In this document: one piece after another, positions 14,191 to 22,857 of the stretch
How the letters are laid out: each line of letters begins with the position of its first letter
How positions within the stretch are numbered: the stretch's first letter is position 1
DNA from: Flavisolibacter nicotianae
Lineage (GTDB): Bacteria > Bacteroidota > Bacteroidia > Chitinophagales > Chitinophagaceae
NCBI RefSeq assembly: GCF_003628535.1
Contig: NZ_RBCI01000005.1
Location: 124,001-188,000 of the forward strand
Length of the DNA stretch: 64,000 nt
Reading direction: 5' to 3'
Made by a program: the position numbers and the translations under genes
The notes under the pieces: generated by a model
Databases searched by the model: none
The model's input: only the letters and a program-made list of their open reading frames with translations
Told to the model about the DNA's origin: nothing

Positions 14191-14505
14191 ATTCCGGGAA
14201 TCGGCAGATCGATTGAATGTAAATCGGGAAAGTTTGTTGGCGCCATATTCTTTCCGGCTTACGAGCTGTCCCATCCTGCCATGTCCTGTTTTTCTGGTCT
14301 ATCTCAAATCCTGTTGAAACCTTCGGTGTATATCTATTCCTTCCGCTTTTACTCAACGTGCCAGTCCGAAACGTTGTATAGCAGCTTTGCTTACTTGTCA
14401 TGCTGATCGTTAAAAAAAACGCATTATCTTCCTGCATCAAGGGTAAAGGCCTACGTCGGTCCGTACTGGTTCATTTTACCTGCTTGCTTATTGAAAATTA
14501 AATCC
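14191..14505. other. intergenic stretch, nothing recognised
   Basis: About 315 bp between a terminator and the oxidoreductase start. A minus-strand frame of 83 codons is present but has no family character and is not called. The stretch presumably holds the promoter of the following gene. Confidence 0.4.
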
Positions 14506-15912
14506 ATGCAACAAGACAAACAACCATCCCGCCGGAAATTCCTAAAGAATTTGGGCGGTTCCACACTCGCATTAGCCGCAACACCTCTGGCCGGTCTGGC
14601 TGCCGAAGAAAAAATTGAAGAACGCATCATTGCCAGCGAAAAGAAAATTACCGCCAACGACAGGATTCGCCTTGGTGCCATCGGTATGGGCATCATGGGC
14701 TATAATGATGTGAACACCGCCCTGAAGGTACCGGGGGTGGAATTGATCGCTGCTTGTGATCTTTACCAGGGGCGGCTTACACATGCAAAAGAGCTTTATG
14801 GTCAAAACATTTTTACCACACAGGACTACCGGGCACTCCTTGACCGGAAAGACATCGATGCCGTGATTGTAGCAACCAGCGATAACTGGCATGCACGCAT
14901 TGCGGAGGAAGCCTTGAGAAAGGGCAAAGCCGTTTACTGCGAAAAGCCCATGGTTCACAGGATCAGGGAAGGTGCAGGCCTGGTAGCCGCACAAAAAAGC
15001 ACGGGAAAGCCGTTGCAGGTTGGCAGCCAGCGGGTGAGCAGCGTCGTGTATGCAAAAGCCCGGGAATTGTACCAGGCCGGCGAAATTGGGAAGCTAAATA
15101 TGATTGAGGCTTCGTTTGACCGGCAAAGTGCGCTGGGTGCCTGGCAATACACCATGCCAACGGATGGCTCTCCTGCCACGGTGGACTGGGATCGCTACAT
15201 TGCCGGCACGCAAAAAACTCCCTACGATCCGAAAAAGTTTTTCTGGTGGCGGAATTACCGCGATTTCGGTACCGGTGTGGCAGGCGACCTGTTTGTGCAC
15301 CTTCTTTCCGGCGTTCATGTCATCACCGGTTCCAAAGGCCCTAAAAAAATATTTTCATCCGGGCAATTTTCGTACTGGAAAGATGGACGCGATGTGCCCG
15401 ACGTCATGACGGCTATTATGGAATACCCGGAAACGGCCGACCATCCGCCGTTCCAACTGGTGTTGCGTGTCAATTTTATCAGTGGCGACGGCGACCGTGG
15501 CTCGGTAAAGCTGGTAGGAGAAGAAGGCGTGATGGAGATCGGCGGCAATGATCTTACAGTGCGCCACAGCCTCATGCCCAAAGCGCCGGGAATCGGTGGC
15601 TGGGATGCGCTGGGAACCTATCCCGCGGCCATGCAGGAAACCTTAAAAAAACAATACAACGAACGGTGGAGTGAAGCGGATCAGAAAGCGCTCAAAAAGG
15701 AAGATGTTGTCTACAAGGCGCCGCGTGGCTACAACGAGCACCTGGACCACTTTACGAACTTTTTTGAAAGTGTACGAACCGGCAAGCCGGTGGTTGAAGA
15801 TGCGGTTTTTGGCTTTCGGGCAGCTGCACCCTGCCTGGCCTGCAACGACAGTTATTTCGAGAAGAAAATCATTCATTGGGACCCGGTGGAAATGAAAATT
15901 CTATCCGTTTAA
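14506..15912 (+). CDS. Tat-exported Gfo/Idh/MocA family oxidoreductase
   Basis: A 468-residue protein. The N-terminus has a twin-arginine signal (PSRRKFLKNLGGSTLALAA). The mature part has a Rossmann domain starting LGAIGMGIMGY, the DAVIVATSDNWH strand, the KAVYCEKPM motif characteristic of the family, and a C-terminal alpha/beta domain. Family members oxidise or reduce sugars and related compounds with tightly bound NAD(P); the periplasmic location points to extracellular carbohydrate processing. The ATG at 14506 is preferred over a TTG at 14491. The substrate is unknown. It is followed by a 182-bp gap and then the ethanolamine-type operon, so a functional link is not implied. Confidence 0.88.
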   Translation: MQQDKQPSRRKFLKNLGGSTLALAATPLAGLAAEEKIEERIIASEKKITANDRIRLGAIGMGIMGYNDVNTALKVPGVELIAACDLYQGRLTHAKELYGQNIFTTQDYRALLDRKDIDAVIVATSDNWHARIAEEALRKGKAVYCEKPMVHRIREGAGLVAAQKSTGKPLQVGSQRVSSVVYAKARELYQAGEIGKLNMIEASFDRQSALGAWQYTMPTDGSPATVDWDRYIAGTQKTPYDPKKFFWWRNYRDFGTGVAGDLFVHLLSGVHVITGSKGPKKIFSSGQFSYWKDGRDVPDVMTAIMEYPETADHPPFQLVLRVNFISGDGDRGSVKLVGEEGVMEIGGNDLTVRHSLMPKAPGIGGWDALGTYPAAMQETLKKQYNERWSEADQKALKKEDVVYKAPRGYNEHLDHFTNFFESVRTGKPVVEDAVFGFRAAAPCLACNDSYFEKKIIHWDPVEMKILSV

Positions 15913-16094: not shown

Positions 16095-17405
16095 TTGCAA
16101 CCACAGCATCCAGCGGGATTAAAACGGACACTCACGCCAACAATGCTATGGGGTCTTGGCGTAGGCTACGTGATTTCGGGTATGTATTTCGGTTGGAACC
16201 TTGGTTTGGAGAAAGGCGGAACCGGCGGCATGGCAGTCGCCACACTTTGCATTATCCTCCTCTATGTTTGTTTTACCTTCAGTTTTACAGAGCTGGCTTG
16301 TGCCATTCCCAAGGCGGGTGGTGCGTTTGATTACGCAAAAAAAGCGTTTGGCGATGACCTTGGTTTTTTAACAGGCATGGCGCAAAACATTGAATTTATT
16401 TTTGCGCCGCCTGCCATTGCCTTTGCAATCGGTGCTTATTTCAACCTGTTTTTTCCGCAATTTCCCGTGCTGGCCATTGCCATTTTTGCCTACGTGGGTT
16501 TTACAATCCTGAACGTAATTGGTATAAAAGCCGCCGCCACCTTCGAACTGGTCATCACGATCCTGGCTGTTGGCGAATTGCTCCTGTTTGCCGGCATCAC
16601 GATGCCTTCTGTGCGGTTTGCAAATTTGCAGCGGGAAGCTTTTTTAAATGGCTGGCAGGGCGTGATGGCTGCGCTGCCTTTCGCAATCTGGTTTTTCCTC
16701 GGGATCGAAGGCGTGGCCAATGTAGCCGAAGAAACGGTTCACCCGCAGCGAACAATCATCAAAGGGTTTGGTTCGGCCATCCTAACCTTGGTTGTTTTGT
16801 GCCTGCTGACCTTCATCAGCGCCGTTGGTGTTGCCGGGTGGCGACAGGTTGTGTACAAAGACGACGGCACCGTTTCCGACTCGCCGCTGCCGCTTGCCCT
16901 GGGACAGGTTGTCGGATCGGGGCATCTTTTTTACCACCTTCTTGTTATGGTTGGATTGTTTGGCTTGATTGCGTCCTTTCACGGCATCATCCTGGCCGCG
17001 GGACGCTCGAGCTTTGAATTTGGCCGGGTGCGCTTTGCACCGGCCTTTCTTGGGAAAATTCATCCAACATTTCGCACACCTTCCAACGCTCTCGTGGCAA
17101 ACATGTTGATTGGCATTGTGGCATTGCTGACCGGGAAAACCGCCGAGATCATTACCCTTTCCGTTTTTGGCGCATTGACCCTGTATATCCTGTCAATGCT
17201 TTCGCTCCTGCGGTTGCGGAAGAGGGAACCCAATTTGCCAAGGCCGTTCAGCGTCCCATTTTACCCGGTATTGCCGGTCGTGGCATTGGTCATTTCTCTT
17301 GTTTCGTTTGTGGCAATGGCCGTTTTTAACTGGCTGCTGGCGGTGATCTATTTCCTGCTGATCGGCGTTTGCTATGCTTTTTTCAAACTTTTTCATCGTG
17401 AATAA
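16095..17405 (+). CDS. ethanolamine-type amino acid/polyamine permease
   Basis: A 436-residue APC-superfamily transporter with about 12 membrane segments. The N-terminal block LWGLGVGYVISGMYFGWNLG, followed by a glycine-rich GGTGGMAVAT and PKAGGAFDYAKKAFG, closely resembles the ethanolamine permease subfamily; IEFIFAPPAIAFAIGAYF also fits. It would import ethanolamine or a similar amino alcohol across the inner membrane. The TTG at 16095 is chosen because the conserved LKRTLTPTMLW segment precedes the first ATG (16143), and an in-frame stop lies just upstream. It opens a four-gene operon whose enzymes suit gamma-glutamylation of an amino alcohol. Confidence 0.85.
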   Translation: MQPQHPAGLKRTLTPTMLWGLGVGYVISGMYFGWNLGLEKGGTGGMAVATLCIILLYVCFTFSFTELACAIPKAGGAFDYAKKAFGDDLGFLTGMAQNIEFIFAPPAIAFAIGAYFNLFFPQFPVLAIAIFAYVGFTILNVIGIKAAATFELVITILAVGELLLFAGITMPSVRFANLQREAFLNGWQGVMAALPFAIWFFLGIEGVANVAEETVHPQRTIIKGFGSAILTLVVLCLLTFISAVGVAGWRQVVYKDDGTVSDSPLPLALGQVVGSGHLFYHLLVMVGLFGLIASFHGIILAAGRSSFEFGRVRFAPAFLGKIHPTFRTPSNALVANMLIGIVALLTGKTAEIITLSVFGALTLYILSMLSLLRLRKREPNLPRPFSVPFYPVLPVVALVISLVSFVAMAVFNWLLAVIYFLLIGVCYAFFKLFHRE

Positions 17406-17443
17406 AAAAGGATAATGTGTAAATTATCCTCACTAATCAGGAT

Positions 17444-18796
17444 ATGGAGACAAATAAAATCATCCAGTATGTCAGGGAGCATCCGGCGGGAAAAGTGAAG
17501 ATTGCGTTTACCGACATCGACGGCGTATTGCGGGGAAAATATATCTCGACGGAAAAGTTCCTTTCGGTTTGCGAGGGGAGCACGGGATTTTGCGATGTGA
17601 TCTTCGGTTGGGATGCTGCCGACGTAGCGTATGACAATGGTCGCTTTACAGGTTGGCATACCGGCTATCCCGATACACCCGCTCGAATTGATCTGGACAC
17701 CTTTCGCAAAATCCCCTGGGAGGAAGACATTCCATTTTTTCTTGGCGATTTCATAGATAAGCAGGGAAAACCATCCTCCGTTTGTCCGCGGCAATTGGTA
17801 AAAAAACTGGTACGCGATGCGGAAGAATTAGGCTTTACCGCTTGTTTCTCGCAGGAATTTGAGTGGTTCAATTTTTCAGAAACGCCACAGTCGGCGACGG
17901 AGAAAAATTTTAAAAACCTTTCGCCGCTGACGCCGGGAATGTTTGGTTATTCCATCTTGCGCAGTTCGTTGAACAACCCGTTTTTCACCGACCTGTTCCA
18001 ACTCCTGAAAAACTTTGATGTTCCGCTCGAGGGACTGCACACCGAAACCGGGCCGGGTGTACTGGAAGCGGCAATTTTATATTCCGGCATCCTGGAGGCG
18101 GCCGACCGTGCCGTGTTGTTTAAAACGGCAGTGAAAGAGATCGCTTATCGTCACGGCATACTGGCCACGTTCATGGCCAAGATCAGCGAAACTCTTCCCG
18201 GTTGTGGCGGACACATTCACCAGAGCCTGTGGCACAAAGACAGGAATGCTTTTTATGACGAAAAAGATGCGAACGGCATCAGCACCGCGATGCGACAATA
18301 CATTGCAGGCCAGTTGTTCTGCCTGCCGCATATCCTGCCCCTGTTTGCACCCACCATCAACAGTTACAAACGCCTGGTGGAAGGTGCATGGGCCCCGACA
18401 ACGCTAACCTGGGGTTTCGATAACCGCACGGTTGCCTTGCGTGTATTGCCGGGAAATAAAAAAGCCTGCAGGCTGGAAACAAGAGTCGTTGGTGCCGATG
18501 TAAATCCTTACCTGGCCATGGCCGGTTGCCTGGGGGCAGGATTGTACGGCATCAAAAATGGCCTGGACTTAAAACAACCGGCCACCAGCGGCAACGGCTA
18601 TCTTGATTTTTCGAACGGGACACTACCAGCGACCTTGGAAGAAGCAACGGCGAAAATGAAAGCATCGACGATTGCAAAAGAGATATTCGGGGAGGGATTT
18701 GCAGCGCATTTTGTGCAAACACGGGAATGGGAGTGGCGGCAACACCTGAAGGCGGTGACAGACTGGGAATACAAGCGCTATTTTGAGATCATTTAA
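17444..18796 (+). CDS. glutamine-synthetase-like gamma-glutamyl ligase (PuuA/GlnA4 type)
   Basis: A 450-residue GS-fold enzyme. The N-terminal beta-grasp part includes FTDIDGVLRGKY. The catalytic part shows metal and ATP ligands in SQEFEWFNF, HTETGPGVLEAAI and GCGGHIHQSLW, an RLVEGAWAPTTLTWG segment, and RLETRVVGADVNPYLAMA near the end. The classical adenylylation-site motif of nitrogen-assimilating GS is not visible. By family and context it would join glutamate to an amine with ATP, giving a gamma-glutamylamide, most simply gamma-glutamylethanolamide. The gaps are 38 bp before and 11 bp after, consistent with one transcript. Ligases for other amines (polyamines, isopropylamine) are alternatives. 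Confidence 0.87.
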   Translation: METNKIIQYVREHPAGKVKIAFTDIDGVLRGKYISTEKFLSVCEGSTGFCDVIFGWDAADVAYDNGRFTGWHTGYPDTPARIDLDTFRKIPWEEDIPFFLGDFIDKQGKPSSVCPRQLVKKLVRDAEELGFTACFSQEFEWFNFSETPQSATEKNFKNLSPLTPGMFGYSILRSSLNNPFFTDLFQLLKNFDVPLEGLHTETGPGVLEAAILYSGILEAADRAVLFKTAVKEIAYRHGILATFMAKISETLPGCGGHIHQSLWHKDRNAFYDEKDANGISTAMRQYIAGQLFCLPHILPLFAPTINSYKRLVEGAWAPTTLTWGFDNRTVALRVLPGNKKACRLETRVVGADVNPYLAMAGCLGAGLYGIKNGLDLKQPATSGNGYLDFSNGTLPATLEEATAKMKASTIAKEIFGEGFAAHFVQTREWEWRQHLKAVTDWEYKRYFEII

Positions 18797-18807
18797 ACAA
18801 ACGCTTC

Positions 18808-19956
18808 ATGACATTTGATACCGTTTACCAGTATAATTTTCCGACGACCATCCGTTTCGGTGCCGGTGCCAGCAATGAACTGGGCGATTACCTGCAAAAA
18901 AATAATTTACAACGTCCCCTGATCGTTACCGACCCGGTGGTCGTGCAACTTCCGTTTTTTAAAAAGATTGTTTCTGACCTGCAACGGAAGGCCATTTCGG
19001 TGGAGGTGTTTTCGGACCTGCATAAAAACCCGGTGAAATCGGATGTGTACAAAGGCACCAGTGCGTACGATGCAGCAAACCGTGATTCGATGATCGGTAT
19101 CGGGGGTGGTGTGGCACTGGACGTGGCCCGTGCCATTTGCCTTCGGATCAATCATCGCGAAGACCTTTTTATCTACGATGACCTGGTGGGTGGCGACGTG
19201 TATGTGACAAACGATGTTCCGCATTTTATTACCATTCCAACCACAGCCGGCACCGGTAGCGAAGTGGGGCGAAGTGCCATCATTGCCGACGATGAAACGC
19301 ATCAAAAGAAAATTCTTTTTTCGCCAAAATTGTTGGCGAAAATCGTATTTGCCGACCCGCAGCTGACAATGGATTTGCCGCCATCCGTTACTGCCGCAAC
19401 CGGGATGGATGCGCTGACACACAACATGGAGGCTTTCCTGGCGAAAATGCCCCATCCGATGTGTGAAGGCATAGCGCTGGAGGGAATGCATTTAATTGGC
19501 AATTCCTTGACGAAGGCGGTCAACGCGCCGGACCTGGAGGCACGAAGCAAAATGTTGATGGCTTCACTGATGGGGGCTGTGGCGTTTCAAAAAGGACTTG
19601 GCGTGGTTCATTCGCTGGCACACCCGCTTTCGGCATTGCTGGACACACACCATGGCCTGGCCAATGCGGTCAATATCCCTTACGGAATGACGTTCAACAT
19701 CGAAGGATTTGAAGACAGGTTTCGCCGTATGGCAAGAGCGCTTGACCTGAAAGACGAAAGTGGCGAGGCCGTTGTCCGTTATTTGTTCGACCTGAATGCG
19801 GAGATCGGCATTCCGCACAAACTTCGCGATATTGGCGTAAAGCCGGAACATGTTGAAACGCTGTCTGACTTAGCTTACGCCGATTTTGCCCATCCCAATA
19901 ATCCCAAGCCCGTTACAAGAGAAAACTTCAGGCAACTGTATACCGAAGCCCTGTAA
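18808..19956 (+). CDS. iron-containing alcohol dehydrogenase
   Basis: A 382-residue group III (Fe-type) alcohol dehydrogenase. The nucleotide-binding glycine motif is IGIGGGVALDVARAI, the TIPTTAGTGSEVG motif follows, and metal ligands lie in GMDALTHNMEAF, GVVHSLAHPL and THHGLANAV. In this operon the expected reaction is oxidation of the alcohol group of a gamma-glutamylated amino alcohol to the aldehyde. Spacing is 11 bp after the ligase and 19 bp before the amidase-dehydrogenase. The sequence is full length with no missing ligands. Other primary alcohols are possible substrates. Confidence 0.9.
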   Translation: MTFDTVYQYNFPTTIRFGAGASNELGDYLQKNNLQRPLIVTDPVVVQLPFFKKIVSDLQRKAISVEVFSDLHKNPVKSDVYKGTSAYDAANRDSMIGIGGGVALDVARAICLRINHREDLFIYDDLVGGDVYVTNDVPHFITIPTTAGTGSEVGRSAIIADDETHQKKILFSPKLLAKIVFADPQLTMDLPPSVTAATGMDALTHNMEAFLAKMPHPMCEGIALEGMHLIGNSLTKAVNAPDLEARSKMLMASLMGAVAFQKGLGVVHSLAHPLSALLDTHHGLANAVNIPYGMTFNIEGFEDRFRRMARALDLKDESGEAVVRYLFDLNAEIGIPHKLRDIGVKPEHVETLSDLAYADFAHPNNPKPVTRENFRQLYTEAL

Positions 19957-19975
19957 CCAGTCAACAGCATGATCC

Positions 19976-22066
19976 ATGAAACAGCCGAAGAAAAAGATTG
20001 GCATCAGCTTTTCCCGCACCAGTTTCCGGTACTACTGGGATTGGTTTACAACGGACGATTTGGGGGACGATCTGGAACTCGTGGAGTTATCGTTCGAAAA
20101 AAACAATACCGAAGACATCGCGGCCTGCGACGGCTTTGTCTTGACCGGCGGCATTGACATCCATCCCTCTTTTTATGGCGGGCAACTGGCCTATCCGCAC
20201 TCACCGGGAGCATTTGAAATCCAACGTGACCTTTTCGAGAAAAAAATTTATGACTTCTCCCAACTGCACCTTCTTCCACTGTTGGGCATCTGCCGCGGAT
20301 TGCAACTGGTGAATGTGTTGAACGGCGGCAAACTCATCCAGGATTTTGGGAAAAACAATTTTATCCACAAAAAAGATTCGGAGGTTGACAAGGTTCACGC
20401 CGTGCGGATTGTCTCCGGCAGTTTGCTGGAAACGATTGCCGGTGAATCCCTGCACGAGACCAACAGTGCACATCACCAGGCGGCCGATCCAGACGCCGTC
20501 GGCCAGGGCTTGCAGGTCAATTGCTATTCCGAAAGCGACGGCCTGATTGAAGGCCTGGAATGGTCCGATAAAACAAACAAGGCATTTCTTCTTTGCGTAC
20601 AATGGCATCCCGAACGAATGGACAATAAAGAAGCGCATCCCTTGTCGCAGCGAATCAAAGAGCGGTTTATCCAGGAAGTAAAAAAGACAAACATGAAAAA
20701 ACTGGCCGTCATTAACCCTGCAACCGAAGAATTGATTACGGAACTGATCGAAGACACGAAGGAAACAGTTGCCGCTAAATTTCATCTCCTGCAAAATGGA
20801 CAGCAAGTGTGGCGGCAGACAAACGTACCAGACCGGGTTGCCATCCTGCGAACATTCGCTAAACTGCTGCAGCAGAAAAGCGAAGAACTGTCTCTTATAT
20901 TGACTTCGGAAATGGGCAAGCCGCTGCAGCAGGCACGCAATGAAATCAACGGTGCCTGTACCCGCATCAACTGGCTCGCCGGCAATGCAGAAAAATATTT
21001 GGCAGATGAATTGATGACCGACGAAAACGGCCTGCAGGAAAAAATTGTTTATGAGCCTCTCGGTGTGATCTGTAATATTTCCGCCTGGAATTATCCATAC
21101 CTCGTCGGGGTGAATGTTTTTGTTCCCGCTCTTCTTGCAGGGAATGCGGTTTTGTACAAGCCTTCCGAATACGCCACTCTAACGGGTTTGCAGATTGAAA
21201 AGCTGCTAATGGAAGCCGGCGTTCCGGCGGATGTTTTCCAGGTGGCTATCGGCAGGGGGGATGTTGGCGGTTTTCTGCTCGATCTTCCGTTTGATGGCTA
21301 CTTCTTTACGGGGTCGCACAAAACCGGCCAATACATTTACGAACGGGTGGCACCGAAAATGGTGCCCTGCCAGTGCGAATTGGGTGGGAAAGATCCGCTG
21401 TACGTTGCAGACGATGTTGACGATCTTAACGCTGTTGCTGCAGCCACTGCCGACGGTGCATTTTACAACAATGGCCAAAGCTGTTGTGCGGTGGAGCGAT
21501 TGTACGTTCACGAAAAAATTTACGATGCGTTTGTTGATGCCTTTGTGCGGGAAGTAAAAGCGTATAAAAAAGGTTTGCCCACCGACGATGGCGTGTATAT
21601 CGGTCCACTGAGCAGGGGAGAGCAGGTTGCTTTTCTCCGTGAGCAAATCAATGATGCGGTTTCCAGGGGTGCACTGATTCTGACGGGTGGTAAGCCGGCG
21701 GAAGGCAAAGGCTATTATTTTGAGCCGACCGTGCTGGCGAATGTCAACCACGGGATGCAGGTGATGAAAGACGAATCATTTGGACCGCTTATTGGAATCA
21801 TGAAGGTTGCCAGCGATGAAGACGCGGTTCGGTTGATGAATGACACCGACTACGGTTTGACGGCATCTGTGTACAGCAGCAGCCAGCAACGGGCTGAAAA
21901 GATCCTGGCGCAACTCAACACAGGAACTGCTTATTGGAACTGCTGCGACCGGGTAAGCGCCGCCCTGCCCTGGAGCGGCAGAAAACAGTCCGGATTTGGT
22001 AGTACCTTATCGCATGCCGGGCTGCGTGCTTTTGTACGTCCCAAAGCTTATCATTTGCGAAAATGA
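19976..22066 (+). CDS. fusion of gamma-glutamyl amidase (PuuD-like) and aldehyde dehydrogenase
   Basis: A 696-residue two-domain protein. Residues 1-239 are a class I amidotransferase-type gamma-glutamyl hydrolase: GGIDIHPSFYGG, nucleophile Cys in GICRGLQLVN, and catalytic His/Glu in QWHPE. Residue 240 is a Met at 20693 that would be the normal start of an aldehyde dehydrogenase; residues 240-696 are a complete one, with the AWNYPY cofactor region, catalytic Glu in CELGGKDP and catalytic Cys in NNGQSCC. There is no linker. The two activities would oxidise the gamma-glutamyl aldehyde and then release glutamate and the acid (glycine if the substrate is ethanolamine). Internal initiation at 20693 could also give a free dehydrogenase. 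Confidence 0.9.
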   Translation: MKQPKKKIGISFSRTSFRYYWDWFTTDDLGDDLELVELSFEKNNTEDIAACDGFVLTGGIDIHPSFYGGQLAYPHSPGAFEIQRDLFEKKIYDFSQLHLLPLLGICRGLQLVNVLNGGKLIQDFGKNNFIHKKDSEVDKVHAVRIVSGSLLETIAGESLHETNSAHHQAADPDAVGQGLQVNCYSESDGLIEGLEWSDKTNKAFLLCVQWHPERMDNKEAHPLSQRIKERFIQEVKKTNMKKLAVINPATEELITELIEDTKETVAAKFHLLQNGQQVWRQTNVPDRVAILRTFAKLLQQKSEELSLILTSEMGKPLQQARNEINGACTRINWLAGNAEKYLADELMTDENGLQEKIVYEPLGVICNISAWNYPYLVGVNVFVPALLAGNAVLYKPSEYATLTGLQIEKLLMEAGVPADVFQVAIGRGDVGGFLLDLPFDGYFFTGSHKTGQYIYERVAPKMVPCQCELGGKDPLYVADDVDDLNAVAAATADGAFYNNGQSCCAVERLYVHEKIYDAFVDAFVREVKAYKKGLPTDDGVYIGPLSRGEQVAFLREQINDAVSRGALILTGGKPAEGKGYYFEPTVLANVNHGMQVMKDESFGPLIGIMKVASDEDAVRLMNDTDYGLTASVYSSSQQRAEKILAQLNTGTAYWNCCDRVSAALPWSGRKQSGFGSTLSHAGLRAFVRPKAYHLRK

Positions 22067-22068
22067 GT

Positions 22069-22857
22069 TTACCACTCCTTGTTCAACCCTTCTTGCAGGG
22101 CTTTGAAATATTTCTTTTTGTTGAAGGAATAGAGATAAGGCGCCCGGTGCGAACCACCGCTGAACTGTTTTTCTTTCCGGTCGAGAATGCCATAACTTAA
22201 GATCTTCCGCTGGAAGTTGGAGCGATCGAGTTTTTTCCCAAGGATGGTCTCGTAAATCAACTGCAGGTCTTTCAACGGGAACTCTTTGGGCAGCAGGTTT
22301 AACCCGATCGGTTGAAAGTTCAGGTGAAGGCGTAGGGATTCGAGTCCTTTTTCGATGATCTGCTTATGATCGAGGATCAGGTTGCGCAACTCCAGCACAT
22401 TGTGCCAGTCGCATTCGCTGGAATACTCGTCGGGTACAGGGTTTACTTTTTCGAATTCGACAAGCGCATAATAGCCGATTGTCACAAAGCGCTGCATGAT
22501 CCAGTGCGAGTCGGGATCTTCCACCCCGGCCTCTTCCAGCCATCGCCGTGCATGTTTTTGCTCGGTGCGTTTTACATCGCCAAAAAGGTGAAACTGCCGG
22601 AGAAAAATGCCTGTCAATTGCGTCCGCTCCTGCAGCACCCGGCTTGCCGCCTCTTCCACGTTTTCATCCTGGTAAATAAAACCACCCGGCAAGGCCCATT
22701 TCGGATCGTGTTTGCCTTTTAACAAAAGCACTTTCAGTTCCCCTGCATGAAAGCCGAAAATGACACAATCAACTGACACCGAGGGAAGAAACAATTCCGC
22801 TCCACCGAAAAGCATATCGCCCAAAACATTTTTTTTCTGTACATCCATCGGTTGCAA
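22069..22857 (-). CDS. NUDIX-domain transcriptional regulator with winged helix (NrtR/AraR-like)
   Basis: A 262-residue protein. Residues about 20-160 form a NUDIX-like fold with a degraded NUDIX box (ALPGGFIYQDENVEEAASRVLQERTQL), suggesting ligand binding rather than hydrolysis. The C-terminal part (LIYETILGKKLDRSNFQRKIL) matches the winged helix of NrtR/AraR-like repressors. Such regulators in Bacteroidota commonly control sugar or pentose genes next door. It is divergent from the GH3 gene with a palindrome between, and convergent with the amidase-dehydrogenase gene, with stops only 2 bp apart and no room for a terminator. The start could also be the Met at 22848. Confidence 0.83.
   Translation of the reverse strand: MQPMDVQKKNVLGDMLFGGAELFLPSVSVDCVIFGFHAGELKVLLLKGKHDPKWALPGGFIYQDENVEEAASRVLQERTQLTGIFLRQFHLFGDVKRTEQKHARRWLEEAGVEDPDSHWIMQRFVTIGYYALVEFEKVNPVPDEYSSECDWHNVLELRNLILDHKQIIEKGLESLRLHLNFQPIGLNLLPKEFPLKDLQLIYETILGKKLDRSNFQRKILSYGILDRKEKQFSGGSHRAPYLYSFNKKKYFKALQEGLNKEW

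Follow-up and report, generated by a model that had tools for sequence, protein, structure and literature searches.

Four adjacent genes in a 64,000-nt stretch of the Flavisolibacter nicotianae genome (contig NZ_RBCI01000005.1, positions 124,001 to 188,000; the whole stretch is referred to below as the window) probably form a complete gamma-glutamylation operon for ethanolamine, a reading to which we assign a probability of roughly 80%. The genes encode an ethanolamine-type permease, a ligase related to glutamine synthetase (GS), an iron alcohol dehydrogenase (ADH), and a gamma-glutamyl amidase fused to an aldehyde dehydrogenase (ALDH). Ethanolamine derived from phosphatidylethanolamine is a common source of nitrogen and carbon, and if our reading is correct many Bacteroidota would use it without a B12-dependent lyase or a microcompartment; the ligase of this route exceeds none of the specific NCBIfam cut-offs.

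Operon structure and proposed pathway

Coordinates are positions in the window, and gene families were assigned by Pfam and NCBIfam profile searches:

16095..17405, + strand: APC-type ethanolamine permease (Eat family), 436 amino acids (aa), TTG start; AA_permease_2 and TIGR00908
17444..18796, + strand: GS-like gamma-glutamyl amine ligase, probably a gamma-glutamylethanolamide synthetase, 450 aa; Gln-synt_C
18808..19956, + strand: iron alcohol dehydrogenase, probably a gamma-glutamylethanolamide dehydrogenase, 382 aa; Fe-ADH
19976..22066, + strand: fused amidase-ALDH, 696 aa; Peptidase_C26 then Aldedh in a single open reading frame (ORF)
19976..20692, + strand: PuuD-type gamma-glutamyl amidase domain, N-terminal part of the fusion; Peptidase_C26 (PF07722)
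20693..22066, + strand: aldehyde dehydrogenase domain, C-terminal part of the fusion; PF00171, 434 bits

The first-pass annotation had described these same families, and the ORFs and profile matches bear it out; the run lies on one strand with intergenic gaps of 38, 11 and 19 bp. The ligase, ADH, ALDH and gamma-glutamyl amidase that characterize a cluster of the Chromohalobacter/Phaeobacter type are thus present together. A promoter scan found 6 promoter-like sites against a shuffle mean of 6.7, i.e., no excess, and 15 terminator-like sites were found against a shuffle mean of 10.9; we claim neither a promoter nor a terminator.

In the proposed pathway, whose substrate, direction, cofactors and individual reactions we infer from the observed gene families, motifs, gene order, co-occurrence and permease context, the permease would bring in ethanolamine, whose amino group the ligase would couple to glutamate at the gamma-carboxyl, using ATP. 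Gamma-glutamylethanolamide would then be oxidized by the ADH to its aldehyde, and this by the ALDH half of the fusion to gamma-glutamylglycine, which the amidase half would hydrolyze to glycine and glutamate. Glutamate would thereby be recycled and no free aminoacetaldehyde would arise. This order, from uptake and ligation through alcohol, aldehyde and acid to hydrolysis, is the one proposed earlier for the locus; it is consistent with every family present and with the published clusters.

Permease context and the substrate

The permease scores 430.7 bits against TIGR00908, the NCBI model of ethanolamine permeases, which is above the cut-off of 381.75, and it probably imports ethanolamine. We searched for its homologues (E<=1e-90) and for the ethanolamine lyase subunit EutB in a sample of 395 Bacteroidota genomes, including the genome of the window; because related genomes are not independent, the counts are given without a p-value. 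The permease occurs in 19 of the 395 genomes, in 11 of them at 59-100% identity to that of the window and in 8 at 45-48%. EutB occurs in 12 genomes: all 8 that carry the 45-48% permease, none of the 11 that carry the 59-100% permease, and 4 that have no permease at this threshold. Seven of the 8 loci with the 45-48% permease have EutB and EutC downstream of it on the same strand; in the eighth genome (G603) EutB is located on another contig. In the 59-100% class, a gamma-glutamyl ligase cluster adjoins the permease in 10 of the 11 genomes. Eight of these, including the genome of the window, have the operon of the window type, and two genomes of the window's order (L117:7973-13491 and L129:7300-12901) have a different enzyme set, namely ligase, short-chain dehydrogenase (SDR), ALDH, GATase and a permease 65% identical to that of the window. 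The last genome (G426) has the permease alone, with a distant ligase elsewhere.

The absence of a EutBC lyase, noted earlier for the window, extends to the whole genome as far as EutB is concerned: the search returned no match, and the E. coli control was positive. One permease family is therefore found with the lyase route and with two different gamma-glutamyl enzyme sets, and a common substrate, ethanolamine, is the best explanation. The earlier choice of ethanolamine as the most likely substrate thus gains support from the permease context, in which homologues precede EutB and EutC and the window type is paired with gamma-glutamyl ligases. Because of this either/or pairing, predicted substrates can be put to a direct test across a large family of uncharacterised ligases. 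Separately, at locus L045 the permease is split over two overlapping ORFs, which reflects a frameshift or a sequencing error.

The ligase

The ligase, of which the genome has a single copy, scores below the cut-offs of all four NCBIfam models that it matched. It is not a canonical glutamine synthetase I (TIGR00653, 226.6 bits compared with a cut-off of 429.15), and it falls short of NF045547, the PuuA equivalog for gamma-glutamylputrescine synthetase (213.2 bits compared with 650). Residues for ATP, metal and glutamate are kept in an alignment with E. coli GlnA. The first-pass annotation had reported no visible adenylylation motif; the motif is indeed absent by eye, but a Tyr of the window ligase is found opposite Tyr397, the residue adenylylated in E. 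coli GS.

The Glu-flap glutamate of GS, which we take to be position 327 (E. coli/Salmonella numbering), is replaced by Trp in the window ligase, by Phe in 5dm3 (presumably the Chromohalobacter enzyme) and the Ruegeria-type ligases, and by Tyr in PuuA; position 357 stays Glu in the window ligase. The available text on GoaS, the glutamyl organic amide synthetases, prints the flap residue as 357 (PMC11335346), and the loss of the Glu-flap glutamate that marks these enzymes is seen here as Glu327 to Trp. GoaS are also marked by the loss of the catalytic Asp50'; at this position an Asp aligns in the window ligase, but within a loop about 13 residues longer than that of GlnA.

The ligase tree comprises 68 rows (one short Rhizobium row was left out, and Streptomyces GlnA4 is not among the rows). 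The window ligase belongs to a supported set of 25 (99/97), of which 14 are operon-linked, 6 permease-linked, 5 other and none kinase-linked, the last term referring to the following context. Ligase homologues at 54-63% identity occur without permease or dehydrogenases at a series of loci (L071, L078-L082, L084-L088, L090, L091, L093, L094, L098-L103, L105-L113). Downstream of such dehydrogenase-free homologues lies a protein of ~347 aa in 30 of 33 loci, with an APH-kinase-like DxxxxN...DYD pattern recognized by eye, and a HAD-IIA phosphatase follows in 28 of the 33. The kinase-like protein matched known families only weakly, at E values of 0.15 (Pfam), 0.12 (PHROGs) and 0.65 (PDB), and had no match in NCBIfam. 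These loci are a second context of gamma-glutamyl ligases.

Several observations weigh against the assignment of ethanolamine. The window ligase lies outside the group formed by 5dm3 and the Ruegeria, Paracoccus and Sinorhizobium ligases (100/99), with 33-34% identity to the latter three, and three aligned pocket columns differ from most ligases of that clade (179, F compared with mostly E; 210, H compared with K; 327, W compared with F). Among the characterised ligases in the tree, the isopropylamine ligase IpuC is nearest to it; IpuC is sister to the larger clade of the window ligase (98/84) on a long branch flagged by the program. Ligases 44-45% identical adjoin polyamine-type transporters in Pseudorhizobium and Rhodobacteraceae M382, and the 54-63% homologues occur in the unrelated kinase-HAD context. 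The wider split of the tree, between 33 rows of the window's kind and 12 mostly kinase-linked rows, is weakly supported (84/67, 88/59), and one kinase-linked row falls elsewhere in the tree. Given the kinase-HAD homologues and the weak split, the substrate cannot be read from the ligase alone; given IpuC as its nearest characterised relative and a pocket different from the Chromohalobacter type, it is a probable rather than an established ethanolamine enzyme. We also considered deducing the substrate from the pocket residues and rejected this approach, since these positions are not alike in the two ligase clades found with this permease type. The window ligase thus stands outside the Chromohalobacter-type clade, although it very likely does the same job.

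The same observations bear on alternative substrates. The same reactions could act on a different small amino alcohol (L-alaninol, isopropanolamine, 3-amino-1-propanol, serinol) or on a mixture, and would then yield alanine, beta-alanine or similar. The IpuC pathway runs through gamma-glutamylalaninol, and the position of IpuC in the tree, the pocket residues, and an amidase whose closest counterpart among those compared is encoded beside ipuC all point in this direction. We nevertheless consider this alternative unlikely, because EutB/EutC neighbours and the TIGR00908 cut-off link the permease family to ethanolamine and because two different ligase sets in the phylum use this permease type. 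Considerably less probable is a Puu-type pathway for the breakdown of polyamines or of amines in general, as suggested by the PuuA-like fold, the PuuD-like amidase and the ligases near polyamine-type ABC transporters. The score against NF045547 argues against it, no PuuB-type amine oxidase is encoded among the four operon genes (the only genes considered in this respect), and an alcohol dehydrogenase has no place in the oxidation of a diamine, which upholds the earlier argument that this enzyme favours an amino alcohol.

Conservation and co-occurrence of the genes

Within the family, 60 of 244 genomes have the ligase (E<=1e-60), as do 52 of the 395 in the phylum sample, the window's own genome being included in both counts; in 11 of the 52 the only ligase is a distant one, 33-37% identical. 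We analyzed gene content in two collections: 60 stretches from 59 other genomes of the family ("relatives"), and the best 80 of at least 572 confirmed relatives ("named" loci), a selection biased to close relatives. The two overlap, in that at least 10 named loci probably come from the same genomes as the fetched relatives. Five parts were counted, namely permease, ligase, ADH, amidase and ALDH, all required to share one strand and to be no more than 6 kb from the ligase. All five are present together in 29 of the 60 relatives' stretches and in 49 of the 80 named loci, so a search for the same gene order in Bacteroidota, proposed earlier as a check, speaks for the operon. The remaining relatives' stretches comprise 5 with ligase, ADH, amidase and ALDH, 1 with ligase, ADH and ALDH, 1 with permease, ligase, ADH and ALDH, 5 with the permease and fewer partners, 18 with the ligase without any partner, and 1 where no ligase was scored. 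The remaining named loci consist of 17 with permease and ligase only, 4 with the ligase alone and 10 with other subsets.

Genera with all five parts among the named loci include Pedobacter, Chitinophaga, Niabella, Aquirufa, Emticicia and Flavisolibacter; Pedobacter cryoconitis and Chitinophaga niastensis are culturable carriers of this operon. Record titles of named loci that give a taxon are all Bacteroidota with one exception, and three read only uncultured bacterium or give a bacterium-level name. The exception, L162 (CAJCIQ010000077.1), is titled Beijerinckiaceae; it carries a Bacteroidota operon with a ligase 73% identical to that of the window, and the title is probably wrong.

The genes also co-occur where they are not linked. 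Of the 21 named loci without an ADH near the ligase, we tested 16 genomes at E<=1e-90, omitting the 5 shortest contigs. The ADH is encoded elsewhere in 15 of the 16, at 76-82% identity in 14 and as two pieces on two contigs in the other (G626), and the ALDH is encoded elsewhere in all 16, although in one (G635) only as a 311-aa frame. At four loci (L180, L185, L198 and L207) the contig ends less than 1.5 kb past the ligase, which may reflect assembly breaks; without these four the count for the ADH is 11 of 12. A control on 40 genomes, 20 with a kinase-linked ligase and 20 without a ligase, returned no match to the ADH query at the laxer threshold of E<=1e-60; the control covers the ADH only, and the 16-genome search serves as its positive control. 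That the four genes are chance neighbours from different pathways is extremely improbable, given that 29 of 60 and 49 of 80 loci keep the order and that the ADH is present even when unlinked (15 of 16 compared with 0 of 40), even though ligase homologues occur in another context and the genes are scattered in some genomes.

Dehydrogenases, amidase and the fusion

The enzymes downstream of the ligase appear intact in their characteristic motifs. The ADH contains the stretches DALTH, VVHSLAHP and DTHHG, which we take to hold the metal ligands, and is 35-44% identical to the Fe-ADHs of six other gamma-glutamyl clusters and 32% identical to EutG. GICRG and QWHPE are intact in the amidase domain, as are ELGGK and GQSCC in the ALDH domain; these are presumably the catalytic motifs of the two domains. 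Over the matched stretch, the amidase is 33% identical to PuuD and 39% identical to the amidotransferase of the ipuC cluster. The ALDH is 38-39% identical to the ALDHs of the Ruegeria, Paracoccus and Sinorhizobium clusters and 32% identical to PuuC.

Among loci that hold both domains, 10 of the 34 relatives' and 8 of the 53 named ones encode amidase and ALDH in one frame, always with the same joint; in the other 24 and 45, respectively, the ALDH has a gene of its own. A Met is kept at the joint, where the separate ALDHs start (Arg in L092). A sequencing artefact was considered and rejected, since the 18 fused ORFs share the same joint, some of them coming from the same genomes. Of the plasmid rows with fusion-length matches, two were inspected: the genes are separate in Shinella and unannotated in Arthrobacter. 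Loci L043, L050 and L171 have operons with ligase, ADH and ALDH and no C26 amidase found nearby; another hydrolase may serve them.

An extended scenario, which we offer tentatively and consider somewhat less than an even chance, is that the Bacteroidota ligase gained its ethanolamine specificity separately from the Chromohalobacter type and replaces EutBC behind a shared permease family, that the fused ALDH-amidase passes gamma-glutamylglycine between its halves, and that the sister ligase group with the kinase-like protein and HAD phosphatase serves a second, undescribed gamma-glutamyl pathway.

Neighbouring genes

An NrtR/AraR-like NUDIX regulator at 22069-22857 (- strand) converges on the operon and is divergent from a GH3 gene. 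We rejected it as a dedicated regulator of the operon, because 33%-identical matches occur in just 2 of the 60 relatives' stretches and because of its divergent arrangement with the GH3 gene; it is probably a sugar regulator and not an operon member. Just upstream of the operon is a Gfo/Idh/MocA oxidoreductase (14491-15912, + strand), for which no match is listed across the 60 relatives' stretches.

Comparison with known systems

The route is not new in kind: it has been published, partly as a prediction, for Chromohalobacter, Agrobacterium, Phaeobacter and, with respect to the first step, Streptomyces. Among open-licence papers, screened by titles and the beginnings of abstracts, we found no description of it in Bacteroidota. 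For Phaeobacter, the available text of PMC10132767 reports proteomic induction of an ethanolamine gamma-glutamylation cluster and binding of ethanolamine by EtoX, and labels the pathway as predicted; it terms the pathway of Chromohalobacter and Agrobacterium demonstrated, whereas the Chromohalobacter pathway is termed predicted in silico in the available text of PMC6529630. As there described, the Phaeobacter cluster resembles the operon of the window in its ligase, Fe-ADH, ALDH and amidase and in the sequence of steps proposed to lead to glycine and glutamate. The gene content of the Phaeobacter cluster, so far as it is given in that text (PMC10132767), is matched in Ruegeria and Paracoccus, whose clusters contain RpiR, N-formylglutamate amidohydrolase, TRAP, ligase, ALDH and Fe-ADH. 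The ADHs and ALDHs of the Ruegeria, Paracoccus and Sinorhizobium clusters, which are of the Phaeobacter type, are 35-40% and 38-39% identical to those of the window, nearer than EutG and PuuC (32% each). In contrast to this type, the window ligase belongs to another clade (33-34% identity), and the amidase is a Peptidase_C26 protein fused to the ALDH and not an N-formylglutamate amidohydrolase, a member of another Pfam family with no BLAST similarity to it at E 1e-3. Uptake also differs, with an APC permease in place of the TRAP system EtoVWX; the Sinorhizobium cluster also has an amino-acid permease, only distantly similar to that of the window.

In Streptomyces coelicolor, according to the available text of PMC6529630, GlnA4 (SCO1613) catalyzes gamma-glutamylation of ethanolamine as the first step and the later steps are predictions. 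This cluster shares with the window the first step, an ALDH, an amidotransferase and, in some species, an ethanolamine permease, but it has an SDR where the window has an Fe-ADH; the matching set is that of L117 and L129, not that of the window (PMC6529630). The ipuC cluster of Paenarthrobacter aurescens TC1 (CP000476) has a ligase 38% identical to that of the window, sister to its larger clade among the tested rows, and an amidotransferase 39% identical over the matched stretch; it differs in its SDR and P450 genes, in having no Fe-ADH annotated in the stretch seen, and in its substrate, isopropylamine by the record's gene name. E. coli PuuABCD likewise combines a GS-like ligase, an ALDH and a PuuD-type gamma-glutamyl hydrolase, but employs the oxidase PuuB where the window has an alcohol dehydrogenase, and its ligase is just 29% identical. 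What is new here is another ligase clade, a non-homologous amidase, the fusion of amidase and ALDH, and the wide presence of the route in Bacteroidota.

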